Source: Streptomyces sp. NRRL S-118 (GTDB lineage Bacteria > Actinomycetota > Actinomycetes > Streptomycetales > Streptomycetaceae). Taken from it: a DNA stretch of 64,000 nt. The position numbers and the translations under genes were made by a program. The DNA lies in contig NZ_KL591003.1 of the NCBI RefSeq assembly GCF_000716335.1, positions 53,527-117,526 on the forward strand. The letters are read 5' to 3'. The notes below the pieces were generated by a model. The model was not told the DNA's origin. It made no database searches and saw nothing but the letters and a program-made list of their open reading frames with translations. Shown in pieces: positions 6,782-29,960 of this stretch. Within the stretch, counting starts at the first letter, position 1, and each line of letters starts with the position of its first letter.

Positions 6782-6859
6782 TGCCGTCCACAGCTCGCGC
6801 CGCGCCGGCGAGGGCTTGCCCATGAGTCGCCGGGCACGCGGTCACCGGGCTCCCCGCGC

Positions 6860-8329
6860 TCACTGGGTGGGCGTGGCCCGGTCCTGCGGCGCCTGCGCTG
6901 CGGACGCGGCCGCCGGTGCGGGTCCGGGCCGCAGCATGGCGAGCATCGTGCCCACCACGACCGCGCACAGGACGTTGACGACCATCGCGGCGACATAGAC
7001 GTGGTGGAAGGAGGCGATGCCGCCGGGGGCCGCGCCCGACGCCATGATCGAGGCGAACCCGGCGACGCCGACCGCACCGCCGACCTGGCGCACGGTCAGG
7101 GTCATGCCGAGGCCGCCCGCGAACTTCTGTGGCGGCACCGTTCCGGCCGCCAGGGACGACAGGCAGGTGATGGCGAGCCCCAGGCCGCCGCCGCCGAGGA
7201 TCGCGGCCGGCAGCCAGCCGCCCAGGAAATTGGGCGTGGGTCCGAAGAGGTCCGACGCCCAGATGGCGTTGCTGGCCGTGAAGGACAGCGCGCCCAGAAC
7301 CGTCACCTTCACCTGGGTCGCCGGCCGGGTGACCCGTCCGGCGGTCAGCGAACCGGCCATCGAGGAGACGGCTCCGACGCTCAGGGCGGCGGCCGTCTGC
7401 AGGACCGACCAGTGCCAGATCTCGGCGGCGAACAACGGGGCGGCCAGCATCCAGGCGAACATCGTCATGTTGAGCATGCCGAGGCCCAGGTTGGCGGTTC
7501 GGAAGACGGGGCTGCGCCACACCGTCATCTCCAGGGCCGGCGCCGGGTGCGTGCGCGAGCGCAGCACGGTCACGGCGACGAGGGCCAGCCCCGCCAGGCC
7601 GAGTCCGAGGGTGCGGACGTCCACCCAGCCCCAGGTGTCCCCCTCGGTGAGCGCGCTCACCACCCCGGCGATGCCCAGGGCGAGCGCGATGCTGCCCACC
7701 GCGTCCGGCAACCGGCCCCCGGTGCCGCGCAACCGCTGCCTCGGCAGCACCACCACGGCGGCGATCAGCATCGCGCCGCACAGCGGGAGGTTGACGTAGA
7801 ACACCGAGCGCCAGCCGAAGGCGCGCAGCAGCAGCCCGCCCGCGGCCGGTCCGACGACGGCGGAGAACCCCGCCACCGCGGACCAGGTGCCGACCGCTCT
7901 GGCGATCCGCTCGCGCGGTGTCGTGGCGAGGATCAGGCCGAGCGCGGCGGGGATCATGCCACCGGCCGCCGCGCCCTGGACGAACCGCGCGGCGATGAGC
8001 CACCAGATGGACGGCGCCACGGCGCAGACCAGGGAGGCGGCGGTGAAGGCGGCCAGGGACCAGAGGAAGACGGTGCGCCGGCCGACGCTGTCGGCGATCC
8101 TTCCGGCGGGCGTGAGCACGGCCGCCAGCAGGATCGTGTAGCCGCTGAGGACCCACGTCATGCTGTTGAGCGACGTGCCGGGGAAGTCGTCGAGAATGTC
8201 CGGGAAAGCGATGCTGACGATCGAGAGGTCGAGGAAGGCCATGAAGCTCGCGCCGCTGCACAGCGCCAGGACGCGGGCCGGGTTGACCTCCTTCGTCGTA
8301 CGGGTGCGCTCGGCCGGCTCGTCGGGCAT
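6860..8329 (-). CDS. MFS drug efflux transporter (DHA2, EmrB/QacA type)
   Basis: Integral membrane transporter of 489 residues with the hydrophobicity pattern of 14-helix DHA2 antiporters. Family motifs are visible: LDLSIVSIAFPDI in helix 1, the motif A loop GRIADSVGRRTVF, and the motif C-like region VGPAAGGLLLRAFGWRSVFYVNLP. The ATG at 8329 is supported by GAGGGG upstream; frames extending further upstream lack support. It is divergent from the NRPS-PKS gene and shares its 630-bp upstream region, so export of or resistance to the locus A product is a reasonable inference. Substrate specificity cannot be read from sequence. Confidence 0.88.
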   Translation of the reverse strand: MPDEPAERTRTTKEVNPARVLALCSGASFMAFLDLSIVSIAFPDILDDFPGTSLNSMTWVLSGYTILLAAVLTPAGRIADSVGRRTVFLWSLAAFTAASLVCAVAPSIWWLIAARFVQGAAAGGMIPAALGLILATTPRERIARAVGTWSAVAGFSAVVGPAAGGLLLRAFGWRSVFYVNLPLCGAMLIAAVVVLPRQRLRGTGGRLPDAVGSIALALGIAGVVSALTEGDTWGWVDVRTLGLGLAGLALVAVTVLRSRTHPAPALEMTVWRSPVFRTANLGLGMLNMTMFAWMLAAPLFAAEIWHWSVLQTAAALSVGAVSSMAGSLTAGRVTRPATQVKVTVLGALSFTASNAIWASDLFGPTPNFLGGWLPAAILGGGGLGLAITCLSSLAAGTVPPQKFAGGLGMTLTVRQVGGAVGVAGFASIMASGAAPGGIASFHHVYVAAMVVNVLCAVVVGTMLAMLRPGPAPAAASAAQAPQDRATPTQ

Positions 8330-8957
8330 GCCAGTCCCCTCAGCTCGTGTGCGTCGTCGAACTCGCCTGCGGGTCAACTCGGTGCGTGGGAACGGTGGTC
8401 GATGCAATACGACCGAAGCAAGTGTGCCCGTCCCCCGTCAGCGGCGGGCCGAAGTATGCGATCAGTACCTGTGATGACCATCACTCGGGATTCGCCCGAA
8501 GATCTTTGCCGCCATGCCTTGCGGTGGCTCTCGCGGCACGCCAATGATGGGGCGGGGCGTCCGGGAGGAACCGGCGTACCGGCAGGGGCAGTTACGCCCC
8601 ATTGCACGTCAGCGCACCTCCGTAGCGCAGTACTTCTGCACGACAGCGTTCCTGCACGACAGCACTTTCCGTACTTCGGCAGTTCAGCACTTCGGCAGTT
8701 CAGCACTTGGCGTACTGGCACTTCATTCCTGACAGCGCGAACGACTCACGGCGCAGCCGCTTGAACGACTGCTCATGTGGGACGGACGCCGCTCGATCAC
8801 GGGGGAAACGGCACGGGTGCACGGGGATCAGTCCTGTGCACGCGCTTGGATCCGGCACCTGGAGGCCCTCACAGGGCTGCCTCGGGTGCTGTTGCCCTGC
8901 CCCGGGACGGGCGGCGCTCACCGGACGCGCCGCGGGTGATCACGGGGAGACTTGTCG
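8330..8957. other. Divergent regulatory region between MFS gene and NRPS-PKS gene
   Basis: About 630 bp without a credible gene and less GC-rich than its flanks. It should hold both divergent promoters. Its main feature is a cluster of 16-bp-spaced direct repeats (8636-8712), listed separately. The megasynthase ribosome site GGGGAG is at 8944-8949. Confidence 0.55.
8636..8712 (+). repeat. 16-bp-period direct repeats upstream of the megasynthase
   Basis: CTGCACGACAGC occurs at 8636 and again at 8652. ACTTCGGCAGTTCAGC occurs at 8673-8688 and 8689-8704, and a partial copy (ACTTGGCG) starts at 8705. The spacing within each pair is 16 bp, about one and a half helical turns. Such arrays upstream of a biosynthetic gene are often activator-binding sites. 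They could also be simple slippage products. Confidence 0.55.
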
Positions 8958-11900
8958 ATGACTTCTTTGAGTTCCGTCCTGATCGGCAGCGGGAGCGTCC
9001 TCGCTCGCTGCGGCGAGGTACTCGTGGCGAAAGGGCACCGGATCGCAGCCGTGGTGACCGGTGACGCCACCGCCCGGTCCTGGGCGGTCAAGGCGGGGAT
9101 CCCGCACCATGAACTCGCCGAGGCCGTGGCGATCGCACCGCGTCTGTCCTGCGACCTCCTGCTGAGCGTCGGCAACTACGCGGTGGTGCCCGAAGCGCTG
9201 CTCGGCTGCGCGAGGCGGGCCGCCGTCAACTACCACTACGGTCCGCTCCCCGAGTACTCGGGCCTGCACACGCCGTCCTGGGCCATCGCGGACGGGGCGC
9301 GTGAGTACGGCATCACCTGGCACCGCATGGCCGAGGTGGTCGACAGCGGTGAGGTGCTGAGGCGGGTGCCGGTGGCGATCGGGCCGGAGGACACCGCGCT
9401 GTCACTGGGCCTGAAGTGCGACGAGGCGGCCGTCGCCGGCCTGGCCGGACTGATCGACGAGATAGCGGAGGGCCGCGAGACCGCGACCCCCCAGGACTCC
9501 GCGACACGCCGCTACTTCTCACGGCACACCCAATTCCCCGCCGAGGGACTGATCGACTGGAGCCTGCCGGCCGAGCGCATCGCGGCCATGGTCCGGGCCA
9601 CCGACTACGGCCCGTTCGCGAGCCCGCTGGTGTGGCCCAAGGTCGGCGTCGGCGGGCACTTCTACGCCGTCCGGGAAGCCCGATTCGAGACCGCCGCCGC
9701 TTGCGCCGGTTCGACTCCCTCCGCCCGTACCGCTCCTACCGCCGGGGCCGCCGCTTCGGCTGCCGATGGCGCGTCCGCCTCAGGTGACGCCGCCGCGCCC
9801 GGAACGGTCCTGTCCTGCGACGACGCGTCGGGCCTGCGGGTGGCCACGGCTTCCGGAAGCCTCACCCTGACCCGGCTGTGCACCCTGGAGGGCGAGGAAC
9901 GGCCCGCCGGCGCCATCGCGGCGGCGCACGGGGTCCGGCCCGGCACGGTTCTGGACGTCCCCGGCGAGGACGCGAGCGCGCGCCTGACCGAGGCGGGCGT
10001 CCGGGCCTCCAAGGCCGCCCACCGCTGGCGTGAGCGCCTGATCGCAGGTGGCGACGATCCCTATCGCCTTCCCTACCCGCAGCCCAGCCCGGGGTCCGGA
10101 ACCGACAGCGCGGCAGGCGAGCGGCGGGCGGCTCCCGTATCCGTGCGGTGTCCCGTCCCACTCGAGGACGGCGGCGACGGCGGCCTGGAAGCGTCCGCGG
10201 CGGCCGCCGCCCGCCTGGCCGGTGCGCTGGGGGTCTTCCTGGGCAGGGCGAGCGGCCGGCAGGACGTCCACCTCGCGATGGCGGCACCTCGCGAGGGCGT
10301 AGACGCCGCGTACCGGGACCTGTTCGCCGCCTGGCTGCCCCTGGTGTGCCGTGTCGACGCCGACGCGACGGTCTCGGACAACCTGCGGGCGGTGCGGCAG
10401 GAGTTCACCCTCGGCCAGGACCGGGGATGGATCCGTCGCGACGCCGTCGGCCGGGACGAAGCGCTCCGGGAGCGCTGGAACAGCGGCGCACTGACACCGG
10501 ACGTGCTGATCTCCTGGGGCCCCCGTGACGCCGCCGGCCAGGGCCCGGGTGGTCAGGGCGGCCGCCGTCCGAGACTGGAACTCCACGTCCGGCAGGACGG
10601 CTCCGAGGACGGTGCGCTCGTCACCTTCCACTACGACGCCGTGCGCCTGTCGGCCCGGGACGTCGTCCGGCTGGCCGACCAGTTCGCCGCGTGGTGCCGC
10701 CGTCTCCCCGCCGCCGCGGAGCAGCCTCCGGCCGCTGCCGACCTGCTCACCGCGGATGAACGCCTCCTCCTCATCGAGGAGTTCAACGACACGGCCCGGG
10801 CCACCGCGGACCTGCCCGAGCAGGGTCTGCACCAGCTCTTCGAGCAGGCCGCACGCGGCCATGCAGGGGCGACCGCACTGGTCTGCGGGGACACGAGCCT
10901 GACCTATGCCGAGCTCAACGCCCGCGCCAACCGGCTCGCCCACGCGCTGACCGGCCGGGGCGTGGGCCGGGGCGACCTGGTCGGCGTGGCCCTGGACCGC
11001 TCGATCGACCTGGTCGTGGCCCTGCTGGCGGTGATGAAGACGGGAGCCGCCTATGTGCCCGTCGACCCCCGGTTCCCCGCCGAACGCATCCGCCTGATGA
11101 TCGATGACGCCGATCCCAAGCTCATCGTCACCCCCGCCGCCGTGCCCGCCGCCCTCGCCGCCTGGGACACCCGCTGCGTGAGCGTCCACCTGGGTGGAGA
11201 GGCGGGCGCCGACGACAACCTCCAGGTCGAGGCGGACGCCGGCGACCTGGCCTACGTCATCTACACCTCGGGCTCGACCGGCCGCCCCAAGGGTGTCGAG
11301 ATCACCCACGGGGCCCTGTGCAACTTCCTGGCCGCCATGCGCGAGCGGCCCGGGTGTTCCGCCACCGACCGGCTGCTGGCGGTCACCACCGTGTCCTTCG
11401 ACATCTCCGTGCTGGAGCTGTTCCTGCCGCTGCTGTCCGGCGCGACCACGGTCATCGCCCAGGCGCGGGAGACCCTGGACGCCAAGGCCCTGAGCGGGCT
11501 GATGGAGCGGCACGCGATCACCGTGATGCAGGGCACCCCCTCCACCTGGCAGCTGCTGCTGGACGGCGGCTGGCGGGGCACCCCCACGCTGAGGAAGATC
11601 CTCTGTGGCGGTGAGGCGCTGTCCCGCGACCTGGCGGACCGGCTGCTCGCCGCCGGGGGCCCGGCGTCGGTGTGGAACATGTACGGCCCCACCGAGACCA
11701 CCGTGTGGTCCACGGTCTGGGAGGTGGCGGCCCGGGACGGGGAGGACGACATCCTCATCGGCAGCCCGATCGACCGCACCCAGGTCTACGTCCTCGACGA
11801 GAACCTGTCACCGGTACCGCTGGGCTTCCCCGGAGAACTGTGCATCGGCGGCGCCGGAGTGGCCCGCGGCTACCGCAACGACCCCGGGCAGACCCGGCTG

Positions 11901-14900
11901 CGCTTCGCGGACAACCCCTTCCACCCCGGCACCCTCTACCGCACCGGCGACCTGGCCCGCTTCGTCGAACCCGGCCGGCTGACGCTGCTGGGACGCAACG
12001 ACCGCCAGGTCAAACTGCGCGGCCACCGGATCGAGCCGGCCGACATCGAGGCGGCCATCAGCCGTCACGAGTCGGTCCGCCGCGCGGTGGTGGTCGGCCG
12101 TGACGAGCAGCTGGTCGCCTACTGCGTCCGCGACGCGGGTGCGGCCGGTGATCCGGCGCCCGCCCCGGCGGACCGGAGCGCCGCCCTGTCCGAGTGGGCC
12201 GCCGCCTGGGACCGCGCCTACGAAGCAGGCACGGACCCCGCTTCCCCCCACCCCGGCGCCGGCGCCGGTACCGCCGACGCCACGTTCAACCTGGCAGGCT
12301 GGCGGAACAGTTACGACGGTCTGCCCTTCTCAGGCGCGGAGATGCGTGACTGGCAGCAGAGTTCGCTCCGGCGCATCCTCTCGCACGCGCCGCGGAACGT
12401 CTTCGAGATCGGCTCCGGCAGCGGCCTGATGCTGTTCGGCCTGGCACCGCACTGCCGCACCTACCACGCCGTGGACGCCTCCGCCGCAGCCGTCGGGATG
12501 ATCCGGGAGCACGCCGCCTCCCTGCCGCACGTGACCTGCGAGCAGCGCGCCGCCCACGCGCTCCCCGAGGTGGCCGAGGGCTCGTTCGACACCGTGCTCA
12601 TCAACTCGGTGGCCCAGTACTTCCCCAGCGCCGACTACCTGACCTCGGTTCTGGAGTGGGCGACCCGGGCGGTCACCAGGGGACGCGTGTTCCTCGGTGA
12701 CGTACGCGACCTGTCGCTGCTGAGTGTCTTCCACGCCGACGTGGCGCACTTCCGCGCGGACGGGGAGGCCGGCGGAATCTCCGCCGAGGACCTGGCCCGC
12801 CGCGCCGAGCGCGGGATGCGCACGGAGCGCGAACTGGTGCTCAGCCGCGACTACTTCGCCGCCCTGCCACACCTGTTCCCGCAGATCACCCGCGTCGACA
12901 TCACCCTGCGCGACGGCCGCTGCGTCAACGAGATGACGCGCTACCGCTACGACGTCACCCTGCACATCGGCGAGGAGGCCCGGCCCGCCACCCCGGCGGC
13001 GGAGAAGGACTGGCAGGCCGACGGCCTCGACCTGGCGGCACTGCGCACCGAGCTGGGCTCGGTCGCCGACCGCCCGCTGCGCCTGAACGGCATCCCCAAC
13101 GGCCGGCTGGGCGAGGTGTGCGGCCGGGTCGGCGCAGCGCTGGAGGCCATGGGCGCGAGTGCCCCGGTGGTGCCCACGTCCTGGATCGACCCCGCCGACC
13201 TCGCCGACCTCGCCCGTGAGGCGGGCCTGGAACTGGCTCTGCTGCCCAGCCGCTCCGGCGGCATCTGGCAGTGCGACGCCCTGTTCTGGCGGCCGGGGCA
13301 GACTCCGGACCTCAGCCCGCTCCCCGCCGAAGCGCGGGACCGCGACGCCCTGGCCGGGTACGCCAACACGCCCTCGGCCGGCGAACCGCCCAGGCCCCCG
13401 CTGCACCGCGTGCTGCGTCCGTGGCTCGCCGAGCGGCTGCCGGAGTACATGGTGCCGGCGTTCATCGTGGAGCTGGACGAGCTTCCCCTGACCCCGAACG
13501 GCAAGATCGACGAGAACGCGCTGCCGGACCCGGTGGTGGAGGTCGACGCCACGGCCAGGCCCGCCACCGAGCTGGAGCGGGACATCATGGCCATCTGGTC
13601 GGACGTGCTCGGCCACGACCGGATCGGCGTCAACGAGAACTTCTTCGAGATCGGCGGCAACTCGCTGCGGGTCGTGAGGGTCCAGACGCGGCTGGAGGAA
13701 CTGCTGGGACGCCCCGTCCTGGGGGCCAAGCTCTTCGAGCACTTCACCGTCAAGACCCTGGCCGCCTACCTGGCCGGCAACACCGGCACCGCCACGGGCG
13801 CCGGTCGCGAGGTCGTGCCCGACCGCCGCCGTGCCGTCCTCGACGAGCCCATCGCCATCATCGGCATGGCCTGCCGCCTCCCCGGCGACGCCAACTCCCC
13901 GGAGGAGTACTGGGAGCTGCTGCAGCGCGGCGGAGACGGCATCGTCGAGGTGCCCAAGGACCGCTGGGACGCCGAGGCCCTGTACAACCCCGACCCGGAG
14001 GTCCCCGGGACCTCGTACTGCAGCCGGGGCGGGTTCGTCACCCCCATCGACCTCTTCGACGCCCCCTTCTTCGGTATCTCGCCGCGCGAGGCCCGCTCGC
14101 TCGACCCCATGCAGCGCATGGTGCTGGAGACCACCTGGGAGGCGTTCGAACGCGCCGGCTACACCCTGGATCAGCTGCGCGGCAGCCAGACCGGCGCGTT
14201 CATCGGTGTGGGCAAGAGCTCGGCGTACCACGAGTACGGCCTGACCATGGCCGGCGGGCTGACCGACCTCGACGGCTACGTGGGCCCGGGTTCCGCGGGC
14301 GGCACCATGTCCGGCCGGGTGTCGTACGTGTTCGGTCTGGAGGGCCCGACCCTCACCCTGGACACGGCGTGCTCCTCCTCCCTGGTCACCACCCACCTGG
14401 CCTGCAACGCGCTGCGCAACGGCGAATGCGATCTTGCGGTGTCGGCCGGTGTGAGCCTGATGCTCACCCCTGAACTGCACGTCGAGTTCAGCCGCCTGCG
14501 CGGCATGTCGGCGGACGGCCGCTGCCGGTCGTTCTCCTCCGACACCGACGGCACCGGCTGGAGCGAGGGGTCGGCCGCGGTCGTCCTCAAGCGGCTGTCC
14601 GACGCCCAGCGCGACGGCGACCCCATCCTGGCCGTACTGCGCGGCACCGCCGTCAACCACGACGGTCACAGCGCCAGCCTGACCACGCCCAGCGGCCCCG
14701 CCCAGCAGCGCGTCATCCGCGCCGCCCTGGCCGCGTCCGGTCTCCAGCCGGGCGACATCGACTACCTGGAGGCGCACGGCACCGGCACCAAGCTGGGCGA
14801 CCCGATCGAGGGCACCGCGCTCGCGGAGGTCTTCGGCGGCAGCCACGCCGACGGGGAACCGCTGTGGGTGGGTTCGGCCAAGTCCAACCTCGGTCACACC

Positions 14901-17900
14901 CAGGCCGCCGCCGGGCTGGCCGGCGTGATGAAGGTCGTGATGGCCATGCGCCACGACGCCCTTCCGCAGACCCTGCACGTCGCCGAGCCCACCCCCACCG
15001 TGGACTGGAAGGGCGCCGGCATGGCGCTGGTCCAGCAGCAGCGGCCGTGGCCGGCGAAGGACGTGCCGCGCCGTGCGGGCGTCAGCTCGTTCGGGATCGG
15101 CGGCACCAACGCCCACGTGATCGTCGAGGAGCCGCCGCGGACGGCCGTGAAGGAGACCGGGGAGGGCGCCTCCGCGCCGCTGCCGCCCACGGTGCCGTTC
15201 CTGGTGTCCGGTTACACCGACGCCGCCCTGCGCCAGCAGGTCGAGAAGCTGCACCTGCACATGGGCATGAACATCCAGGACCGTCTGGGTGATGTGGCGT
15301 TCTCGCTCGCGACCACGCGCAGCCACTTCCGGCGCCGGCTGGTGCTCCTGGTCAAGGACAAGGCCGAACTCCTCGACAAGCTGGCCTCCTTCGCCCGCAC
15401 CGGGGAGGTGCCCGCGGAGTCGGTGCGCAGCGGGAACCACACCGAGGAACCCCGCCTGGCCCTGCTGTTCACCGGCCAGGGCAGCCAGGTCGCGGGCATG
15501 GGCAGGGACATCCACGACGTCTACCCCGTCTTCCGTGAGGCGCTGGAGGAGGTCGCCGCCCGCTTCACCGAGCTGGAGAAGCCTCTCCTCGAGGTGATGT
15601 GGGCCGATCCGGGCAGTGAGGAGGCGGCCCTGCTGCACCGCACCGACTTCACCCAGCCGGCCCTGTTCGCCCTTCAGGTGGCGCTGTGGCGCCTGTGGGA
15701 GAGCTGGGGTGTGCGGCCGGAGGTGCTGCTGGGCCACAGCATCGGTGAACTCGCCGCGGCGCACGTGGCCGGGGTGTTCGATCTGGACGACGCCTGCCGG
15801 CTGGTCGCGGCCCGCGGCCGGCTGATGCAGGCCCTGCCCGCTCGCGGCGCCATGGTGTCGCTGGAAGCCGGCGGTGACGAGGCGGAAGCCGCCATCGACG
15901 CTCTCGGGCTGCGCGGCAAGCTGGACGTCGCCGGACTCAACACGCCCACGCAGACGGTGCTGTCCGGTGACGCCGAGGCCGTCGAGGCGATCACCGCCCA
16001 CTTCACGGAGCAGGGCCGCAAGGCCAAGCGGCTGACGGTGTCCCACGCCTTCCACTCGCACCACATGGACGGCATGCTCGCCGAGTTCCGGGCCGTGGCG
16101 GAGACCATACGCTTCCGTCCCGCGGCGATCCCCCTCGTCAGCAGCCTGACCGGCGAGCTCGCCGCGCCGGGCGAGCTGGAGCAGGCCGACTACTGGGTCC
16201 GCCAGGTGCGCCACGCCGTCCGTTTCAGCGACGGCATGCGGAGCCTGCACCGCCAGGGCGCGAACACCTTCCTGGAGCTCGGCCCGCAGCCCGTGCTGTC
16301 GGGCCTGGGCGCGACCTGCCTGGCCGACGAGGGGCCGGTGTCCTGGGTGCCGTCCTGCACCCCGGGCAGGAACGGCGCCTCGGTCATCCAGCGGAGCCTG
16401 GCCGAGCTGCACGTGCGGGGTGTCCCGGTCGCCTGGGACGGCTACTTCGCGCCCTTCGGCGGTGGCCGGGTGGCCCTGCCGACGTACGCCTTCCAGCGGG
16501 AGCGGTTCTGGTTCGAGCCGCCGCTCTCCCGCGAGGTCGGCGCCGGTCTGGACGCCACCGGCCACGCGCTCCTCGGCGGCGGTGTGGAGATCGCCGGCAC
16601 CGGGCTGTCGCTGTTCACCAACGTGGTGGCGGCGGACCAGCCGGTGTGGGTGCAGGAGCACCGGGTGATGGACGCCGTCCTGATGCCGGGCACGGCGTTC
16701 TTCGAGGCCATGCGGGCGGCGGGCGACGCGGCCCACGAGGGCGAGTGGGACCTGTCGGACGTGGTCATCGCCTCGCCGCTGGTGCTGGCCTCCGGTGTGC
16801 CGGTACGTATGCAGGTCACCGTGGGTCCGGCGGTCGGTGAGGCCCGTCCCGTCCAGGTCTACAGCGCCCCCGAGGGTGAGGACGGTGCCTGGCAGCTGCA
16901 CGCGGAGGGCCGGATCACGCCCGCGGAGGGAGCCGGTGCCGGCACCGCGGTGACGGTTCCGCCCCGGGGCGCCGAGCCCCTCGACGCGTCCGCCCTCTAC
17001 CGCGATCTCGACGCCCTCGGCTACGGCTACGGGCCGACCTTCCAGGGCATCAAGGAGGCCTGGCACGTGGGCGGGGAGGTGTGGGCCAGGGCCGCGCTGC
17101 CGGAGAGCGCGGAGCAGTCCGCCGCCGGCTACGTCCTGCACCCTGCCCTGCTGGACTCGGCCATGCACTCCCTGCTGCTGACCCAGCGGCTGCAGAACCG
17201 GACCGGTGACGACCTGTTCGTGCCGTTCGAGGCCGAGCGGCTGTCGCTGCGGGTGAAGGGCCTGTCGGAGATCTGGGTCAGGGTCGCCGACTTCGAGCTG
17301 GGCGACGGCGAGTTCTGGGCATCGCTCGACATCCACGACCGTGACGGCGCCCATGTCGGCCGGCTTCACCGCCTCCACGCACGGCGGGTGGACCGCGCGG
17401 TGCTGCGCCGCCTGGCCGCGGCCGGGGTGGACCGCTTCCAGTTCGACGTCGACTGGCGCCACGTCGACACCGAGACCGTCGAACTGGGCGGCTCCTGGGG
17501 CATGATGACCCCGGCCGGGGACGTGCCGTGGGCGCGGGAGGTCAAGACCCTCCTGGCCCGCGCCGGTATCCAGGTGATCAAGGTCCGGGAGCTGGAGGAC
17601 GCCGAGGACCTGGACGGCCTGGTCTGCCTGTGGGACTCCGACGCGGAGGTACCGTCCCAGGCCCACGCGTTCGCCGCCAGGGCCCTGGAGCAGCTCCAGG
17701 AAGCGGTCGGCACGGAGTTCCGCACCCCGCTGGTCTGGGTCACCCGCCGCGCGGTGGGCACCGGCGCCGACGACATGGTCTCCGGGCTGGGCGCCGGACC
17801 GCTGTGGGGCCTGATGCGCACCGCCCGCAACGAGCACCCCGAACTGAGCCTGCGCCTGATCGACCTCGGCGGGGAGGAGGCGGACCGCAAGGCGCTGCCT

Positions 17901-20900
17901 GCCGCGCTGATGCTGGAGGCCGAACCGGAGTGCGCCCTGCGCCACGGCGAGGTGCTGGTGCCGCAACTGCTGCGGGTCGGCTCGGCGCAGGATCTGCAGA
18001 TCCCGGCGGAGGGCCGCTGGCAGCTGGAGATCGCCGCCAAGGGCCGCCTGGACGAGCCGCTGACGGTCAAGTCCCTGCCGGAGAGGGCCCTCGCACCGGG
18101 CGAGATCCGCGCCGAGGTGCGGGCCGCCGGGGTGAACTTCCTCGACGTGCTCAATGCCCTGGGCATGGTCGAGATCCCCGCGTTCGGTCTGGAGTTCGCC
18201 GGTGTGGTCACCGAGGTCGGCGGCAGCGTCGACCAGGTGAAGGTGGGCGATGCCGTGCTGGGTCTGGCCCGCGGCTCCTTCGCCTCCGAGGTCGTCACGG
18301 ACGCGCGCCAGGTGGTGCGCATGCCGGAGCACCTCAGCTTCGAGGAGGCCGCCACCATCCCGATGACCTTCCTCACCGCCTGGTACGGGCTGCACGAACT
18401 GGGCGGTCTGCAAGCGGGCGAGCGGGTGCTGATCCACGCCGCGGCCGGTGGCGTGGGCATGGCGGCGGTGCAGCTGGCGCGGCTCACCGGTGCCGAGGTC
18501 TACGGCACGGCCAGCGAGCCCAAGTGGCCCGCGCTGCGGGAGCTCGGCCTGGACGACGCCCATCTCGCCTCGTCGCGCGACCTGGGCTTCGTGGAGCACT
18601 TCGGCAAGGGCGCCGGCGGTGAGTCCGGCGGCGGCTTCGACGTGGTGCTGAACTCCCTGGCCACCGAGTTCATCGACGCGAGCCTGGGCATGCTGGGCAG
18701 CGGCGGACGGTTCCTGGAGATGGGCAAGATCGATGTGCGGGAGCAGTCCGCCATCGACCGGAGCCACCCGGGCGTGACCTACACCGTCTACAACCTGCCC
18801 GAGGCGGGCCCGGACCTCATCCAGCGGATGCTGGTCTCCATCGCCGAGCTGTTCACGCAGGGCAAGCTGGCCCCGCTGCCGCTGCGGGCCTTCCCCATGA
18901 CACACGCCTCCGACGGCCTGCGTTTCATCGCCCAGGCCCGGCACGTGGGCAAGGTGGTGCTCGTCCCGGCCCAGCAGCGGGAGTTCGTCCGGCCGGACGG
19001 CGCGGTGCTCGTCTCGGGTGGCGTCGGCGACCTCGGCCGGCGCGTGGCCAGGTGGCTGGCCGGCACCCACGGCGTACGCGACCTGGTGCTGACCTCCCGC
19101 CGCGGGATGGAGACCCCGGGTGCGCAAGCCCTGGTGGAGGAGCTGTCCGAGCTGGGCGCCACGGCCACGGTGGTGGCCTGCGACGCGGCCGATCGCGACG
19201 ACGTCGCCGCGGTGATGGCCCTGTTCGGTGACGAACGCCCGCTGCGGGGCGTGGTCCACGCGGCCGGTGTGCTGGACGACGGCGCCCTGACGGCGCTGAC
19301 GCCGGATCGGTTCGACGCGGTCCTGCGGCCCAAGGTGGACGGCCTGTGGCATCTGCACGAGCTGACCCAGGACATGGAGCTGGACTTCTTCATGATGTTC
19401 TCCTCCATCGCGAGCGTCATGGGAGCCCCCGGCCAGGGCAACTACGCCGCTGCCAACGCCTTCCTGGACGCGCTCGCCCACCTGCGGCGGGCCGAGGGCC
19501 TGCCGGCCACCTCGGTGGCCTTCGGGCCCTGGGAGGGCGACGGCATGGCCGCCGGGCTCAGCGAGTTCGACCGGGCCCGCTTCGCCCAGCTCGGCCTGGA
19601 CCGGCTGGCCCCGGACGAGGGCCTGGAGCTCTTCGAGCTCGCCGTCAGGAGCGGCCGTGCGCTGACCATGGCCGCCGCGCTGGACCTGAACCGCGTGCAG
19701 CACTACTTCGAGAACCGTGGCGGCATACCGCCGCTGTTCCGCGCGCTGCTCAGCGGCAACGCCGGCGGACGCTCGAGGGCCGGCGGCGGGACGGATCTGC
19801 GCAAGCTGCTGGGCGAGGCCGCGCCGGAGGAGTACCCGGACGTGGTGCTGAGCGTGGTCCGCGAGGAGGTGGCGAAGACCCTGGGCTTTGCCTCGGCGGA
19901 GGCCGTGGACGTCGGCGTGCCGCTCCAGGACATCGGCATCGACTCCCTGACGGCGGTGCTGATGCGCAACCAGCTGGCGGACCTGACCGGGCTCGCCCTG
20001 CCCGCGAAGATCGCGTTCGATCACCCCAACCTCACCTCGCTGGCCGACTTCCTGCTGGCGCAGCTGCTGGAGGCGGGGCTGGACGCGGCCTCCCCGACCG
20101 CCACCGGGACGGCGGCCACCGGGCCGGCCGAGCCGGCGGAGGCCGTGGGCGTGGACCTGTCCCCGGCCCGCAAGGGCCTGCTCCACCCCGACCTGCGCTT
20201 CACCAACGCCACCGGGGCGCCGGTACGCCCGGAGGCGGTGTTCGTCACCGGCGCCACCGGATTCGTCGGCGCCTACCTGCTGCACGAGCTGCTCGCCTCC
20301 GAGGTGGTCGCCTACTGCCTGGTGCGGGCGGACGACACCCGCCAGGCCATGGAGCGCCTGGTCGGCGCCCTCGACGCCTACGGCCTGTGGAAGGAGGAGT
20401 TCGCGCCGCTGCTTAACCCGGTGGTGGGCGACCTCACGAGGCCGCTGTTCGGCCTGGACGAGGAGGGCTTCGACGAACTGGCCGACCAGGTGGACGCCAT
20501 CTGCCACTCCGGTGCCCTGGTGGACTGGATGCGGCCGCTGGAGGACTACATCGGTCCCAACGTGGTCGGTACGCACGAGGCGCTGCGCCTGGCCTCGCGC
20601 GGCCGCGGCAAGGCGTTCCACTTCGTGTCCACCTTCGCCACGCTGCCCAAGTACCTGGGGTACGAGGTCACCGAGGACGACCGGGAGTACGGCTACCTGA
20701 CCTCCAAGTGGCAGGCGGAGCAGATGGTGGCCGCCGCCCGCTGGCGCGGCGCGAAGGCGTCGACGTACCGGCTGCCGTTCGTGGGTGCCTCGACGCGTAC
20801 CGGGCACTTCCGGCTCGATCGCGGCGACTTCCTGCACAACCTGATCACCGGCGGCCTCGAGATGGGGAGCTTCCCGTCGCTGGCGGCGGACCTCACGGCG

Positions 20901-21311
20901 GTCCTGCCGGTCGACTACCTGTGCCGCACGATCGCCGAGGCGATGACCGGCGACCTGGCGCGCATCGGCAGGGACTACGACTTCGTCAACTCCGGGGCCC
21001 CGGCCTTCGACCGCTTCTTCGAGATGGTCGGCGCCGCCGGCGGCGGGGCGGAGATCGTGCCCTTCGACGAATGGCGGCAGCGGGCGCTGGCGTTCGCCGC
21101 CGGACACCCGGCGAGCCCCCTGGCCCGGATCGCCGCCCTGGTGGACGGCCTGACGGCGGAGGGCCTGGCGGACATGTTCGCCGCGCTCCCTGTGGGAGAC
21201 GCCGTCTTCGGCGCGGAGGACTACCCGTCCCCGCCCCTCGACGAGGACTTCGTCCGCACCTATGTGGACCGCATCAACACTACGGACCGAGCGGAGAACA
21301 CGACGTCATGA
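8958..21311 (+). CDS. Hybrid NRPS-PKS megasynthase with formyltransferase start and reductase release
   Basis: Single 4117-residue assembly line. Domains (approximate residues): formyltransferase 1-310 (N91, H93 and D129 in the N-x-H...VDSG pattern); C-terminal part of a condensation domain 385-600 without an HHxxxDG motif; adenylation 620-1050 (YTSGSTGRPKG at 769) interrupted between A8 and A9 by an N-methyltransferase at 1080-1460 (SAM motif EIGSGSG near 1150); A9-A10 to 1525; PCP (S1569); KS (C1805 in DTACSSS); AT (S2261, HAFH at 2363, malonyl type); DH (H2568, with D replacing the usual G of HxxxGxxxxP); ER 3028-3340; KR (Y3496, LDD motif, B type); ACP (S3663); thioester reductase 3758-4110 (GATGFVG; Y3913, K3917). 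Pocket residues by eye are D-I-L-Q-L-G-M-V-W-K, glycine-like. ATG 8958 has GGGGAG upstream. The next gene overlaps by ATGA. Confidence 0.95.
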   Translation: MTSLSSVLIGSGSVLARCGEVLVAKGHRIAAVVTGDATARSWAVKAGIPHHELAEAVAIAPRLSCDLLLSVGNYAVVPEALLGCARRAAVNYHYGPLPEYSGLHTPSWAIADGAREYGITWHRMAEVVDSGEVLRRVPVAIGPEDTALSLGLKCDEAAVAGLAGLIDEIAEGRETATPQDSATRRYFSRHTQFPAEGLIDWSLPAERIAAMVRATDYGPFASPLVWPKVGVGGHFYAVREARFETAAACAGSTPSARTAPTAGAAASAADGASASGDAAAPGTVLSCDDASGLRVATASGSLTLTRLCTLEGEERPAGAIAAAHGVRPGTVLDVPGEDASARLTEAGVRASKAAHRWRERLIAGGDDPYRLPYPQPSPGSGTDSAAGERRAAPVSVRCPVPLEDGGDGGLEASAAAAARLAGALGVFLGRASGRQDVHLAMAAPREGVDAAYRDLFAAWLPLVCRVDADATVSDNLRAVRQEFTLGQDRGWIRRDAVGRDEALRERWNSGALTPDVLISWGPRDAAGQGPGGQGGRRPRLELHVRQDGSEDGALVTFHYDAVRLSARDVVRLADQFAAWCRRLPAAAEQPPAAADLLTADERLLLIEEFNDTARATADLPEQGLHQLFEQAARGHAGATALVCGDTSLTYAELNARANRLAHALTGRGVGRGDLVGVALDRSIDLVVALLAVMKTGAAYVPVDPRFPAERIRLMIDDADPKLIVTPAAVPAALAAWDTRCVSVHLGGEAGADDNLQVEADAGDLAYVIYTSGSTGRPKGVEITHGALCNFLAAMRERPGCSATDRLLAVTTVSFDISVLELFLPLLSGATTVIAQARETLDAKALSGLMERHAITVMQGTPSTWQLLLDGGWRGTPTLRKILCGGEALSRDLADRLLAAGGPASVWNMYGPTETTVWSTVWEVAARDGEDDILIGSPIDRTQVYVLDENLSPVPLGFPGELCIGGAGVARGYRNDPGQTRLRFADNPFHPGTLYRTGDLARFVEPGRLTLLGRNDRQVKLRGHRIEPADIEAAISRHESVRRAVVVGRDEQLVAYCVRDAGAAGDPAPAPADRSAALSEWAAAWDRAYEAGTDPASPHPGAGAGTADATFNLAGWRNSYDGLPFSGAEMRDWQQSSLRRILSHAPRNVFEIGSGSGLMLFGLAPHCRTYHAVDASAAAVGMIREHAASLPHVTCEQRAAHALPEVAEGSFDTVLINSVAQYFPSADYLTSVLEWATRAVTRGRVFLGDVRDLSLLSVFHADVAHFRADGEAGGISAEDLARRAERGMRTERELVLSRDYFAALPHLFPQITRVDITLRDGRCVNEMTRYRYDVTLHIGEEARPATPAAEKDWQADGLDLAALRTELGSVADRPLRLNGIPNGRLGEVCGRVGAALEAMGASAPVVPTSWIDPADLADLAREAGLELALLPSRSGGIWQCDALFWRPGQTPDLSPLPAEARDRDALAGYANTPSAGEPPRPPLHRVLRPWLAERLPEYMVPAFIVELDELPLTPNGKIDENALPDPVVEVDATARPATELERDIMAIWSDVLGHDRIGVNENFFEIGGNSLRVVRVQTRLEELLGRPVLGAKLFEHFTVKTLAAYLAGNTGTATGAGREVVPDRRRAVLDEPIAIIGMACRLPGDANSPEEYWELLQRGGDGIVEVPKDRWDAEALYNPDPEVPGTSYCSRGGFVTPIDLFDAPFFGISPREARSLDPMQRMVLETTWEAFERAGYTLDQLRGSQTGAFIGVGKSSAYHEYGLTMAGGLTDLDGYVGPGSAGGTMSGRVSYVFGLEGPTLTLDTACSSSLVTTHLACNALRNGECDLAVSAGVSLMLTPELHVEFSRLRGMSADGRCRSFSSDTDGTGWSEGSAAVVLKRLSDAQRDGDPILAVLRGTAVNHDGHSASLTTPSGPAQQRVIRAALAASGLQPGDIDYLEAHGTGTKLGDPIEGTALAEVFGGSHADGEPLWVGSAKSNLGHTQAAAGLAGVMKVVMAMRHDALPQTLHVAEPTPTVDWKGAGMALVQQQRPWPAKDVPRRAGVSSFGIGGTNAHVIVEEPPRTAVKETGEGASAPLPPTVPFLVSGYTDAALRQQVEKLHLHMGMNIQDRLGDVAFSLATTRSHFRRRLVLLVKDKAELLDKLASFARTGEVPAESVRSGNHTEEPRLALLFTGQGSQVAGMGRDIHDVYPVFREALEEVAARFTELEKPLLEVMWADPGSEEAALLHRTDFTQPALFALQVALWRLWESWGVRPEVLLGHSIGELAAAHVAGVFDLDDACRLVAARGRLMQALPARGAMVSLEAGGDEAEAAIDALGLRGKLDVAGLNTPTQTVLSGDAEAVEAITAHFTEQGRKAKRLTVSHAFHSHHMDGMLAEFRAVAETIRFRPAAIPLVSSLTGELAAPGELEQADYWVRQVRHAVRFSDGMRSLHRQGANTFLELGPQPVLSGLGATCLADEGPVSWVPSCTPGRNGASVIQRSLAELHVRGVPVAWDGYFAPFGGGRVALPTYAFQRERFWFEPPLSREVGAGLDATGHALLGGGVEIAGTGLSLFTNVVAADQPVWVQEHRVMDAVLMPGTAFFEAMRAAGDAAHEGEWDLSDVVIASPLVLASGVPVRMQVTVGPAVGEARPVQVYSAPEGEDGAWQLHAEGRITPAEGAGAGTAVTVPPRGAEPLDASALYRDLDALGYGYGPTFQGIKEAWHVGGEVWARAALPESAEQSAAGYVLHPALLDSAMHSLLLTQRLQNRTGDDLFVPFEAERLSLRVKGLSEIWVRVADFELGDGEFWASLDIHDRDGAHVGRLHRLHARRVDRAVLRRLAAAGVDRFQFDVDWRHVDTETVELGGSWGMMTPAGDVPWAREVKTLLARAGIQVIKVRELEDAEDLDGLVCLWDSDAEVPSQAHAFAARALEQLQEAVGTEFRTPLVWVTRRAVGTGADDMVSGLGAGPLWGLMRTARNEHPELSLRLIDLGGEEADRKALPAALMLEAEPECALRHGEVLVPQLLRVGSAQDLQIPAEGRWQLEIAAKGRLDEPLTVKSLPERALAPGEIRAEVRAAGVNFLDVLNALGMVEIPAFGLEFAGVVTEVGGSVDQVKVGDAVLGLARGSFASEVVTDARQVVRMPEHLSFEEAATIPMTFLTAWYGLHELGGLQAGERVLIHAAAGGVGMAAVQLARLTGAEVYGTASEPKWPALRELGLDDAHLASSRDLGFVEHFGKGAGGESGGGFDVVLNSLATEFIDASLGMLGSGGRFLEMGKIDVREQSAIDRSHPGVTYTVYNLPEAGPDLIQRMLVSIAELFTQGKLAPLPLRAFPMTHASDGLRFIAQARHVGKVVLVPAQQREFVRPDGAVLVSGGVGDLGRRVARWLAGTHGVRDLVLTSRRGMETPGAQALVEELSELGATATVVACDAADRDDVAAVMALFGDERPLRGVVHAAGVLDDGALTALTPDRFDAVLRPKVDGLWHLHELTQDMELDFFMMFSSIASVMGAPGQGNYAAANAFLDALAHLRRAEGLPATSVAFGPWEGDGMAAGLSEFDRARFAQLGLDRLAPDEGLELFELAVRSGRALTMAAALDLNRVQHYFENRGGIPPLFRALLSGNAGGRSRAGGGTDLRKLLGEAAPEEYPDVVLSVVREEVAKTLGFASAEAVDVGVPLQDIGIDSLTAVLMRNQLADLTGLALPAKIAFDHPNLTSLADFLLAQLLEAGLDAASPTATGTAATGPAEPAEAVGVDLSPARKGLLHPDLRFTNATGAPVRPEAVFVTGATGFVGAYLLHELLASEVVAYCLVRADDTRQAMERLVGALDAYGLWKEEFAPLLNPVVGDLTRPLFGLDEEGFDELADQVDAICHSGALVDWMRPLEDYIGPNVVGTHEALRLASRGRGKAFHFVSTFATLPKYLGYEVTEDDREYGYLTSKWQAEQMVAAARWRGAKASTYRLPFVGASTRTGHFRLDRGDFLHNLITGGLEMGSFPSLAADLTAVLPVDYLCRTIAEAMTGDLARIGRDYDFVNSGAPAFDRFFEMVGAAGGGAEIVPFDEWRQRALAFAAGHPASPLARIAALVDGLTAEGLADMFAALPVGDAVFGAEDYPSPPLDEDFVRTYVDRINTTDRAENTTS

Positions 21312-22651
21312 GCGACGCTACCCAGGCGGCAGACGCGACCGTGGACGACGACGCCACGGTCACCGGCACCTACCGGAAGACCGGCACCTTCCTGCACTCC
21401 TCGGCGGCGGCGCACGCCGAGCAGCTGTCCCCGGTGCTGGACAAGTACCAGGTCGACAAGGAGGAGATGGGGTCGAGGCTGCCTCCGCACCGGACGCTGA
21501 ACACCAGCTGCTTCCACCCGGAGGTGCTCCCCACCGAGGTCGTCCGGATGAATCTGGACGACGATCTCGCGGACAACCTGGCACGCCAGCTGCGCTGTCA
21601 GGCGGTGATCCAGGAGAGCTTCGCGGCCGCCTCGATCGGCAGCTACTTCCCGGTCTCCACCATGTTCGAGAACTGCGTGCTGTTCGTGCCCTCGGCGAAG
21701 CGCTTCTACGACCTGAACCAGGACATCGTCCACGAGCACTTCCCCGAGGTAGAGACCGCGGTGGTGAACGCGTTCATCGTGCCGGCGGAGAAGCGGCCGT
21801 ACGGCACCCATGCGGCCAGCTCGATCGCCCTGCAGATCCCGTCACTGGTGAAGAAGCAGCTCGGCTTCCCCACCGAGTACCGCAGCTTCCACACCGCGCT
21901 GACCCCGACGCCGCTGACCCGGCAGCCCTTCGTGATCTTCGAGGAGGCCGAGGTCGAGGCCCCGAACCTCCCTTACGTCTACGAGAAGATGCTGGAGCAC
22001 GGCCTGGAGGGCGAGGAGAAGGACGCCGTCGACAAGGCGCTGTACCTCTTCCTGGAAGGGAAGCTGTCCGAGATCGACCTGCCGTCGGTGCGGGACTACC
22101 TCATGGCGATGTACTGGGCGAAGACGTACGCCGACAAGCCGTCTCCCGGCTACTACTGCGACAGCCGGGTGGGCGACGCGCTGGTCTTCGACAACTACCG
22201 GGCCCACGCCGACAGCACCCTGCCCCGCACCACCAAGGACCGCCTCACCATCGACCTGCGGTGCTTCAACAAGGTCCACTACCCCAAGGGCATGACCAGT
22301 GGCCTGGACTTCATCGTCGACCCGGACGAGCGCGCCTACCAGGTCAAGCGCAAGTGGGCGTCGATCGAGTTCCTGCTCGCCACACTCGGTTACGAGAGCG
22401 TCGACGAGTTCCTGCGCCTGGTGTTCGGCGGGGCCCGGAGCGCGGCGGACATCGATCCGTTCGGCCTGATGACCGACCTGCAGTTCGGCATCTACAACAA
22501 GTCCGAGTACCACCTCCTGGACCAGAACCTCGACGACCACTACGAGCGGGTCGAGGCCCTGTACGACCGCATCGCCAAGGAGGGGGAGTACGTCCTGCCG
22601 GAGCGGGCCAGGCAGTGCCTGGCGGCGCTGAGCGAGCAGCCCGGCACCTGA
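21308..22651 (+). CDS. Fe(II)/2-oxoglutarate oxygenase-like protein with atypical iron motif
   Basis: Encodes 447 residues; the ATG lies in the megasynthase stop (ATGA), so the two are coupled. Residues about 286-320 read GDALVFDNYRAHADSTL then DRLTIDLRCF. This matches the distal part of the double-stranded beta-helix of Fe(II)/2OG oxygenases: GD-hydrophobic-FDN, the distal iron His (H300), then the 2OG-binding Arg (R312 or R318). I find no HxD/E motif upstream; the nearest candidates are H168-A-A and H195-T-A. A missing acid is known from 2OG halogenases (HxA/HxG) and from inactive members. The predicted role is oxidative or halogenating tailoring of the locus A product. The family call rests on one block read by eye. 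Confidence 0.5.
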   Translation: MSDATQAADATVDDDATVTGTYRKTGTFLHSSAAAHAEQLSPVLDKYQVDKEEMGSRLPPHRTLNTSCFHPEVLPTEVVRMNLDDDLADNLARQLRCQAVIQESFAAASIGSYFPVSTMFENCVLFVPSAKRFYDLNQDIVHEHFPEVETAVVNAFIVPAEKRPYGTHAASSIALQIPSLVKKQLGFPTEYRSFHTALTPTPLTRQPFVIFEEAEVEAPNLPYVYEKMLEHGLEGEEKDAVDKALYLFLEGKLSEIDLPSVRDYLMAMYWAKTYADKPSPGYYCDSRVGDALVFDNYRAHADSTLPRTTKDRLTIDLRCFNKVHYPKGMTSGLDFIVDPDERAYQVKRKWASIEFLLATLGYESVDEFLRLVFGGARSAADIDPFGLMTDLQFGIYNKSEYHLLDQNLDDHYERVEALYDRIAKEGEYVLPERARQCLAALSEQPGT

Positions 22652-22706
22652 GGTCCGGAAAGGGCACGGCTGAAGTGAGCCACCGACACCGATCGAGGAA
22701 TGCGCT

Positions 22707-23498
22707 GTGAGCCGAACCGAATCCGTGGACGACCTCGTGGAACGCTTCTACACGGTCGTGAAGCTGCCGCACGACCCGTTCACCAAGGTGTTCCTCAATC
22801 GGTGCCGTTCCCACACCGTCAAGGTCGACGGCCGTTTCTACAAGTACTACCAGAGCGGCAGCGGCCCCACCGTCCTGCTCGTCCACGGCCTGAACACCCA
22901 TCTGGGCAGCATGGTGGCCATCGCCGAAGAACTCCTGGCCCAGGGTTACCGGGTGGTGCTGTTCGACGTGCCGCCGCACGGGGAGGCGCTGGGCACCACG
23001 GGTGACCCCGCCGAGATCCGCGCCCTCCTGCGCGCCCTGTACGACCGGCTCACCGGCCTGTACGCGGTGGTCGGCCACTCGATGGGCGGCCTGTGGGCCC
23101 TCACCGCGTGGCACGCCGGGGTGGCCGCCCGGACCGTGATCTCGATCTCCTCCCCGCCCGCCAAGATGTTCCTGGTCGAGAGGTTCGCCGAGATGAACGC
23201 CCTCGACGACGACCGGGTCCGGGGGGTGGCCGGGGAGATCGAGAGAAGGTTCGGCGAGACGGTGTGGGACGAGTACTCGGCGCTCGAGGCCGCCCGAGCG
23301 ATCGACGTGCCGGGACTGGTCGTCCACGGCACGGCCGACGACTACGTGCCGCCCGTTCACGCCGGGGATCTGCATGCGAGCTGGCGGAACTCCACCGTGG
23401 AACTCGTCGAGGGCGCCGGACACTTCGACATCGTGGACTCACCCGAGGTACGGAAGATCATCTCCGCGCACCTGCGGAGCATGGAAGAAGCAAGGTAA
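22707..23498 (+). CDS. Alpha/beta hydrolase 1 of locus A
   Basis: Encodes 263 residues with the alpha/beta hydrolase core: oxyanion region LLVHGLNTH, nucleophile elbow GHSMGG, a late acid in HGTADDYVPP, and the catalytic His in GAGHFDIVD. There is no signal peptide, so it is cytoplasmic. The GTG at 22707 is preceded by GAGGAA. It lies 55 bp after the oxygenase-like gene in the same operon. It could act as a thioesterase, an amidase (for example removing the formyl group) or a cyclising or hydrolytic tailoring enzyme. The megasynthase already has a reductive release domain, so a plain type II editing role is also possible. Confidence 0.85.
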   Translation: MSRTESVDDLVERFYTVVKLPHDPFTKVFLNRCRSHTVKVDGRFYKYYQSGSGPTVLLVHGLNTHLGSMVAIAEELLAQGYRVVLFDVPPHGEALGTTGDPAEIRALLRALYDRLTGLYAVVGHSMGGLWALTAWHAGVAARTVISISSPPAKMFLVERFAEMNALDDDRVRGVAGEIERRFGETVWDEYSALEAARAIDVPGLVVHGTADDYVPPVHAGDLHASWRNSTVELVEGAGHFDIVDSPEVRKIISAHLRSMEEAR

Positions 23499-23509
23499 GG
23501 GGCGATCAA

Positions 23510-24340
23510 TTGGACACCGACATCACGGAAAAGCTGCGCCGGCTGGCCTTCACGCCGATGCGGACGCAGCCTCCGAACGCCACCCGGCCGATCCTGGAAC
23601 AGGCTGCCAAGGAGGTCGAGGTCGTCGACGGCGGCAAGGTGGTCCACTACCTCTGGGGCGAAGGCGAGCGGCGGATCCTGCTGGTCCACGGCTGGGCCGG
23701 CAACGCCGGGCACCTGACCGTCCTTGCGGACGCGCTCGCCCGGGCGGGCTGCGCGGTGGTCGTCGCCGATCTCCCCGGCCACGGCGAGTCCGAGGGAGGG
23801 GAGTCCTCCGTCATCCACTTCGCCAAGGCGGTCGAGGCGGCCCACGAGCGGTTCGGTCCCTTCCACGCCGTCGTCGCCCACTCGCTGGGCGCCGCGGCCA
23901 CGACCTACGCCATGTCGCGCGGGGTAACGCTGGAGCGGGCCGTGTTCGTCAACCCCATCAGCAGCTACACCAGCCTCTGGCGCCGCTCCGGCCAGGTGAT
24001 GCAGGTGTCGCCGGAGGCCATCGGGCTGGTTCGCGCGCGTGCGGAGGAGTGGCTCGGCATCTCCTTCGACGCCATCGAACCCGCACTCGCGGCACGGGAC
24101 TTCACCGGCCGGCTGCTCGTCGTCCACGACGAGAACGACCCGGAGTCGCCGATCACCGACAGCGAGGCGCTGGTGGCGGCCTGGGGACAGGCCGAGCTGA
24201 TGCGGGTGCGGGACCTGGGCCACACCAAGGTGCTGCGCGACGAGGCCGTGGTCCGTCGCGCCGTCGGCTTCCTGACGGCGGACGGCTCGGGCGACGGAGC
24301 GGACAGCGACGCGGCGGGGGATGGAGCGGCGGGCCGGTGA
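23510..24340 (+). CDS. Alpha/beta hydrolase 2 of locus A (TTG start)
   Basis: Encodes 276 residues with the alpha/beta hydrolase signature: LLVHGWAGN, nucleophile in AHSLGA (a variant elbow with Ala in place of the first Gly), acid near HDENDPE, and His in LGHTKVL. The proposed start is TTG at 23510, 11 bp after the previous stop, with AAGGGG upstream; ATG at 23557 would remove about 16 residues. The 3' end overlaps the antiporter gene by GTGA. The C-terminus is a Gly/Ala/Asp-rich tail. It is only loosely similar to hydrolase 1, so the two probably catalyse different steps. Confidence 0.82.
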   Translation: MDTDITEKLRRLAFTPMRTQPPNATRPILEQAAKEVEVVDGGKVVHYLWGEGERRILLVHGWAGNAGHLTVLADALARAGCAVVVADLPGHGESEGGESSVIHFAKAVEAAHERFGPFHAVVAHSLGAAATTYAMSRGVTLERAVFVNPISSYTSLWRRSGQVMQVSPEAIGLVRARAEEWLGISFDAIEPALAARDFTGRLLVVHDENDPESPITDSEALVAAWGQAELMRVRDLGHTKVLRDEAVVRRAVGFLTADGSGDGADSDAAGDGAAGR

Positions 24341-29952: not shown

Positions 29953-29960
29953 GGCCGCCG

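Follow-up and report, generated by a model that had tools for sequence, protein, structure and literature searches.

The window analysed here, the whole stretch of 64,000 nucleotides from Streptomyces sp. NRRL S-118, carries a compact, mobile natural-product cluster made up of a thiolase, an MFS exporter, a hybrid NRPS-PKS megasynthase, a protein that we call OXY and two alpha/beta hydrolases (Table 1). The same six genes lie next to one another, flanked on either side by unrelated genes, on a 335-kb linear plasmid of Streptomyces sp. Caat 7-52, where they are annotated, in order, as acetyl-CoA C-acetyltransferase, MFS transporter, polyketide synthase, hypothetical protein and two alpha/beta hydrolases; gene set, order and orientation are identical to those of the window. 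Of 24 loci, 20 have hydrolase 1 and 18 a separate hydrolase 2, the hydrolase 2 matches of loci L016 and L029 falling on hydrolase 1. Among the loci examined, only one from Pseudovibrio and one from Achromobacter have a Rieske oxygenase (by Pfam) between the hydrolases, and the Achromobacter one was also the only locus with a LysE-type exporter. The clusters of Actinospica and of genome G058 contain OXY, the MFS exporter and an HTH_67 regulator, and hydrolase 1 was not found in them.

Table 1. Cluster genes and megasynthase domains, with positions in the window
Feature	Position	Strand	Basis and remarks
Acetyl-CoA acetyltransferase (thiolase)	5474..6697	+	Pfam Thiolase_N/C; catalytic Cys, His, Cys motifs kept; proposed self-resistance copy
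DHA2-type MFS exporter	6863..8407	-	Predicted, start codon uncertain; in other loci, too, next to synthase and thiolase
NRPS-PKS megasynthase, FT-(C-lobe)-A-MT-PCP-KS-AT-DH-ER-KR-ACP-TR	8958..21311	+	One protein, 4117 aa
Formyltransferase (FT)	8958..9887	+	NxH and D motifs kept; Pfam FT_N 61-161, FT_C 194-308
C-terminal lobe of condensation (C) domain	10122..10841	+	Profile search
Adenylation (A) domain	10839..12146	+	Pocket DILQLGMVW(K) by alignment with AB3403 (4zxh); Pfam AMP-binding 628-972, AMP-binding_C 1473-1516
Methyltransferase (MT) inside A domain, N-MT position	12150..13364	+	Pfam methyltransferase 1148-1242; 5wmm match
Peptidyl carrier protein (PCP)	13581..13772	+	Pfam PP-binding 1542-1605
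Ketosynthase (KS) with C-terminal extension	13845..15332	+	Cys-His-His kept; Pfam KS 1630-2008
Acyltransferase (AT)	15465..16424	+	GHSIG and HAFH; Pfam AT 2170-2489
Dehydratase (DH)	16563..17405	+	Pfam DH 2536-2816
Enoyl reductase (ER)	18054..18962	+	Pfam ER 3047-3335; missing from 8/67 aligned members
Ketoreductase (KR)	18999..19535	+	LDD motif; Pfam KR 3348-3526
Acyl carrier protein (ACP)	19830..20042	+	GIDSL; second Pfam PP-binding stretch, bounds approximate
Thioester reductase (TR)	20238..21158	+	GxxGxxG and YxxxK; NAD_binding_4 3763-3992; TIGR01746 above cut-off
OXY	21308..22651	+	447 aa; ATGA overlap with synthase stop; invariant H195-x-A197, H300, R312
Alpha/beta hydrolase 1	22707..23498	+	Pfam
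Alpha/beta hydrolase 2	23558..24340	+	Start approximate; read from translation, annotated so in plasmid copy

Two candidate genes, at 21262-22710 and 6767-8764, were dropped on codon-bias and homology checks as being in the wrong frame, and the long start of the ORF at 23374-25602 was dropped on the same checks. The Na+/H+ exchanger at 24334-25602 was not kept as a cluster gene either: it lies downstream in some loci only and is absent from the plasmid cluster.

Elsewhere in the window, at 44697-59021, a pair of large ORFs whose PKS domains resemble those of PUFA synthases (NMO, KS, AT, ACP, KR; KS, AT, DH, PPTase) and a following alpha/beta hydrolase form a separate, probably iterative PKS locus, which ends in a glycosyltransferase (UDPGT/EryCIII-like, 59018-60259) that shares 4 bases with the gene before it. 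A FemAB-family protein, an overlapping MurJ-type flippase and a response regulator at 27324-32367, preceded by a minus-strand L,D-transpeptidase-like gene, look like a cell-wall set, and at 38639-41375 a minus-strand gene for a PLP enzyme of Cys/Met metabolism overlaps a MocR-type (GntR-aminotransferase) regulator gene at its start. In the same genome, a formyltransferase-N match of 34.9 bits inside a 905-aa frame (L005, G000:C9:58305-58625) perhaps marks a second FT-bearing synthetase.

Anatomy and distribution of the megasynthase

The megasynthase frame, which has a GC3 of 0.93, is open over 8952-21311 if a TTG start is used and over 8958-21311 from an ATG start. An earlier note, made from the sequence alone, had read it as one 4117-residue protein running from FT to TR, and Pfam and NCBIfam agree with that order, with the motifs intact; the FT start and the reductive release that it proposed are borne out by FT_N and FT_C and by NAD_binding_4 and TIGR01746, respectively. 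Its partial C domain is recovered as well. The interval between FT and A gave no Pfam match and no meaningful PDB match by single-sequence search; a nine-row profile of residues 389-628 finds the C-terminal lobe of C domains in solved NRPSs (best E 1.2e-7, for microcystin synthetase B, and also the Txo and linear gramicidin synthetases), and we therefore regard the interval as a C-lobe remnant. With A-PCP followed by KS-AT-ACP on one chain, catalytic residues included, the protein is a type I NRPS-PKS hybrid, and its N-terminal FT with NxH...D places it among FT-initiated NRPSs; the FT is predicted to formylate the carrier-bound amino acid.

Relatives with the same layout (56-91% identity) occur, among the matches listed, in Streptomyces, Kitasatospora, Nocardia, Actinoplanes, Actinospica, Achromobacter, Ramlibacter and metagenomes, so the synthase is neither a chance product nor an assembly artefact. 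The search scored 1642 candidates, and among the best 120 of 852 matches at least 67, the query included, are this synthase. The alignment of 67 rows (the first 70 minus three modular PKSs of more than 5000 aa; three rows are truncated) shows how strongly the catalytic residues are conserved: the PCP Ser, KS Cys-His-His, AT Ser/His, DH His/Asp and KR Tyr are kept in all 67, the KR Ser in 66 (one Thr), the ACP Ser and TR Tyr/Lys in 66 (one truncated row), and the FT N, H and D in 65, two rows being truncated there. The ER is present in 59 of the aligned synthases and missing from eight; the ER-lacking branch includes L008, L011 and L012 (no ER by tblastn), as well as L041 and L045-L047.

Predicted product and the coupled OXY protein

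The A-domain pocket, D-I-L-Q-L-G-M-V-W when read against AB3403 (4zxh, the best structure match of this stretch) with the Lys taken from motif A10, is nearly identical to that of AB3403 itself (D-I-L-Q-L-G-V-V-W), which we take to be a glycine-specific A domain. Over the 67 rows, eight of the ten pocket positions are fixed (residues 235, 236, 239, 278, 299, 301, 331 and 517), while M is replaced by L in four rows and V by I in two, and the window's pocket falls within the glycine code DILQLG[M/L/V][I/V]WK. Glycine is also the substrate of four A domains with DILQLGMIWK in an excerpt of a recent survey (PMC12283262) and the one assigned to DILQLGVI in a passage of the nocamycin paper (PMC5466765). 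Because its pocket is nearly identical to those of glycine domains, the A domain is predicted to activate glycine, which fits the likeness to formyl-glycine starts drawn in the earlier note. The alignment to 5wmm, which we take to be a TioS-type interrupted A-MT domain, runs through A and MT as one continuous match. An MT inside the A domain signifies N-methylation, GHSIG/HAFH motifs are of the malonyl type and LDD marks B-type KRs; by these rules the AT should be malonyl-type.

These assignments suggest a short assembly. The A domain would load glycine, the inserted MT would convert it to sarcosine and the FT would cap the nitrogen with a formyl group; the PKS module would add a single malonyl unit and reduce it fully, and the TR would release 4-(N-methylformamido)butanal (that is, N-formyl-N-methyl-4-aminobutanal). 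With its nitrogen capped by formyl, the enzyme-bound gamma-amino thioester may be prevented from cyclising to a lactam. FT domains do not usually formylate secondary amines, and we counted this against our main explanation. Alternatively, the PKS module could iterate, giving a longer N-formyl-N-methyl-amino fatty aldehyde or alcohol, as the combination of a single fully reducing module with a TR might suggest and as would fit the best NCBIfam matches, PKS_plus_SDR and mycobacterial long-chain synthases, both of which fall below cut-off. However, a KS that takes its starter from an aminoacyl-PCP, as this one would, is suited to a hybrid modular role, and we consider iteration unlikely.

OXY adjoins the synthase in all 24 loci; the locus scan used two peptide patterns and may miss distant OXY relatives. 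Pairwise identities of KS and OXY are closely correlated (r = 0.93, 12 loci), and OXY relatives occur in eight of 392 same-genus genomes, counting the window's own, and in seven of 43 Achromobacter genomes. The protein belongs to no Pfam or NCBIfam family and had no sequence match in NCBIfam or the PDB and none above chance in Pfam. Its fold is predicted to be that of an Fe(II)/2-oxoglutarate oxygenase: the predicted model (mean pLDDT 89.2) gives Foldseek and VIA matches to the double-stranded beta-helix, a fold seen here in the model only and at low TM-scores (query 0.23-0.30). Read as motifs, H300 and R312 fit a metal/2-oxoglutarate site, while H195-x-A197 is without a carboxylate, and the spacing suggests H195 as a metal ligand. 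H195 and A197 are invariant in all 98 aligned rows, as is H168; these rows, the first being the window protein, were drawn from 103 proteins and leave out six, namely the short P0188, P0219, P0220, P0222 and P0223 and the full-length P0129. An hhalign comparison with EctD aligned the H300 segment alone, not significantly, and placed no first metal ligand, nor was one placed by MAFFT. In Fe(II)/2-oxoglutarate halogenases, HxG or HxA replaces HxD/E at the metal site. OXY may oxidise the chain or its product, or halogenate it if the HxA motif is genuine.

Linkage and origin of the cluster thiolase

The gene at the upstream end of the cluster encodes a thiolase that shares 72% identity with its genome's housekeeping copy, and its kept catalytic motifs fit a resistance role and a biosynthetic one alike. 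All nine other ER-bearing Streptomyces examined have a copy 90-97% identical to it some 2-3 kb from the synthase start, plus a 70-72% copy elsewhere, so that a dedicated thiolase accompanies all ten of the main ER-bearing Streptomyces clusters, the window's included. Cluster thiolases were also found in G058, Nocardia crassostreae, Streptacidiphilus and Pseudovibrio, on the same contig as the cluster in Actinospica and, internally shortened, in a Solirubrobacter-family MAG (L015); none was seen on the Ramlibacter contigs L017 and L026, which are too short to tell. A near-identical thiolase occurs in three of the 392 same-genus genomes, each with the cluster, in a scan that scored four candidates per genome in the rows shown. 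In Achromobacter, the thiolase is present (E ≤ 1e-200, 91-100% identity) in exactly the seven of 43 genomes that have OXY and in none of the 36 without it, a count not controlled for shared ancestry of the seven. There its distance to OXY is about 20 kb in the six genomes in which the two share a contig, whereas in G432 they are on different contigs. Thiolase and synthase are about 8 kb apart, separated by an acyl-CoA ligase, another thiolase-like gene and a transporter operon. In Achromobacter pestifer, a 4'-phosphopantetheinyl transferase gene (L048:4972-5733) adjoins the cluster-linked thiolase.

This strict linkage of a second copy of a housekeeping enzyme is confined to ER-bearing clusters. 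For the four ER-lacking Streptomyces clusters (G055, G176, G357 and G372), the 10-12 kb of upstream sequence read (12 kb in G055) contain no thiolase, and the genomes have no near-identical one elsewhere. In three of the four (loci L008, L011 and L012), the 71-72% copy is the only one present, and the downstream sequence, read at length, shows no hydrolase. Since clusters of this branch do without either, thiolase and hydrolase are not essential to the synthase, and the branch perhaps has a different product and target. That ER-lacking clusters manage without a thiolase might also indicate that the gene is incidental throughout, in which case the thiolase would give no clue to the product or the target of what would be an orphan hybrid of the ordinary kind; we consider this very unlikely given the Achromobacter co-occurrence, the ten of ten in the main Streptomyces group and the recurrence of the linkage in several separate lineages.

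The cluster thiolases do not share a single origin. In a tree of 39 rows, for which 20 of 34 thiolase places were fetched and some loci, L015 among them, were left out, the cluster label has to change five times, and well-supported branches force four of these changes. AU tests, run without seven deep paralogues of the 39 rows and on groups named after the first tree, rejected a single clade for the 13 cluster thiolases at a cost of 290 log-likelihood units (p-AU 7e-10). They likewise rejected the joining of Streptomyces with Achromobacter (p 7e-9) and of the Nocardia group with Achromobacter (p 3e-27), and also of the Pseudovibrio thiolase, a single row on a long branch, with Streptomyces (p 1.7e-6), the Nocardia group (p 9e-7) and Achromobacter (p 0.0045). 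Because the tests did not reject a clade of Streptomyces and the Nocardia group (p 0.149) or one of Streptomyces and G058 (p 0.18), the firm count is three: the tree supports separate recruitments in Actinobacteria, Achromobacter and Pseudovibrio, with up to five possible. The Achromobacter cluster thiolase shares 68% identity with the housekeeping copy of Achromobacter and 43% with that of the window. Thiolase and OXY identities correlate at r = 0.78 (12 loci) and those of OXY and the TR stretch at r = 0.68, so identity correlations alone do not separate the cases. No clear convergent active-site change emerged among the seven columns compared; a K to A change at residue 250, present in three lineages, was discarded as it varies in distant paralogues too.

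The origin of the thiolases bears directly on a biosynthetic role for the enzyme. The formyl group could be a protecting group that a hydrolase removes, leaving N-methyl-4-aminobutanal to close to N-methyl-pyrrolinium, while acetoacetyl-CoA made by the thiolase enters a Mannich addition towards a hygrine- or tropane-like alkaloid. Such a route would make use of the predicted gamma-amino aldehyde, and thiolase and hydrolases do tend to accompany ER-bearing synthases together. On the other hand, a biosynthetic thiolase should be co-inherited with its synthase, which the lack of a single clade argues against; the Actinospica and G058 clusters have the thiolase while hydrolase 1 was not seen there; and at least one further thiolase (E ≤ 1e-80) was present in 15 of 18 searched genomes. 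An alkaloid product is therefore unlikely in our view. Lineages that separately recruit local housekeeping copies are better explained by self-resistance, with each copy standing in for the target, since a pathway enzyme would travel with the synthase.

A proposed thiolase-directed product and its precedents

In our best reading, this widespread orphan cluster makes a small electrophile directed at thiolases. We infer such a compound from the separately recruited thiolases together with the precedent of MasL, which excerpts of the massilin paper describe as an acetyl-CoA acetyltransferase encoded in the polyyne cluster that is both target and self-resistance gene, the polyyne binding Cys90 covalently (PMC9098870). 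Together with the short assembly proposed above, the whole explanation would be that the cluster makes a small electrophile that inhibits acetyl-CoA acetyltransferase and that the cluster thiolase is a resistant spare copy of this target; it remains tentative, with somewhat less than an even chance of being right in full. Thiolases of different origin offer a genomic argument for a target, here acetyl-CoA acetyltransferase, which can be made without having the compound. The breadth of the family and its recurring neighbours, OXY and the dedicated thiolase, lay outside the earlier note and change the likeliest purpose of the cluster, whose six-gene layout is kept across Actinobacteria and Proteobacteria and is plasmid-borne too. 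Its start module would pair formyl capping with N-methylation, and OXY would represent a tailoring enzyme family that has no name.

A bolder version specifies how the product could act. Given the C4 skeleton predicted for it and the link of the thiolase to the ER, the synthase product might be a carba analogue of an acyl-cysteamine thioester and hence a CoA-mimic thiolase inhibitor, with OXY as a new-family tailoring enzyme, possibly a halogenase. The predicted formamide-N(CH3)-CH2-CH2-CH2-CHO would have a CH2 at the sulfur position of amide-N-CH2-CH2-S-CO-, the acyl-pantetheine end, and its aldehyde would trap the thiolase cysteine. We regard this as distinctly unlikely as a complete account; if true, it would explain glycine, formyl, one reduced malonyl and reductive release together, as well as the presence of a spare thiolase in ER-bearing clusters only, and a bacterial pathway would be building a CoA-mimic inhibitor from scratch.

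The earlier note knew of no described pathway with this combination of domains, and this stands as far as the open-access PMC literature goes, where we found none with the domain order or product, although it does not prove the pathway undescribed; the accessible parts of a GNP paper (PMC4598715) and an Entotheonella paper (PMC12858407) do not show the architecture either. Several systems nonetheless share parts of it. The linear gramicidin synthetase LgrA, among the solved relatives of both domains, likewise has an FT ahead of its A domain, even if the FT match to it is weak (4e-5); to our knowledge, its start module has no methyltransferase and no PKS, and the peptide continues. The loading modules of oxazolomycin and conglobatin (FT-A(Gly)-PCP) hand formyl-glycine to a PKS, a step shared with the start predicted for the window's synthase. 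Those pathways are, as far as we know, multimodular, form an oxazole with a cyclising enzyme, have no N-methyltransferase and do not release the chain reductively after one module; with an MT in its A domain and a single PKS module ending in a TR, the window's synthase falls outside the oxazole-forming group, and N-methylation would block oxazole formation in the start module. TioS-type A-MT domains (5wmm) share the methyltransferase within the A domain but come without an FT and from another pathway. OXY, with 447 aa and extra elements, has no sequence match to GriE, EctD, WelO5 or SyrB2 and carries H-x-A where most PhyH-like and halogenating Fe(II)/2-oxoglutarate enzymes have H-x-D/E. Finally, while the MasL cluster is one of polyyne chemistry with no NRPS-PKS, and the evidence for the window thiolase is genomic, both systems place an acetyl-CoA acetyltransferase gene inside a biosynthetic cluster.
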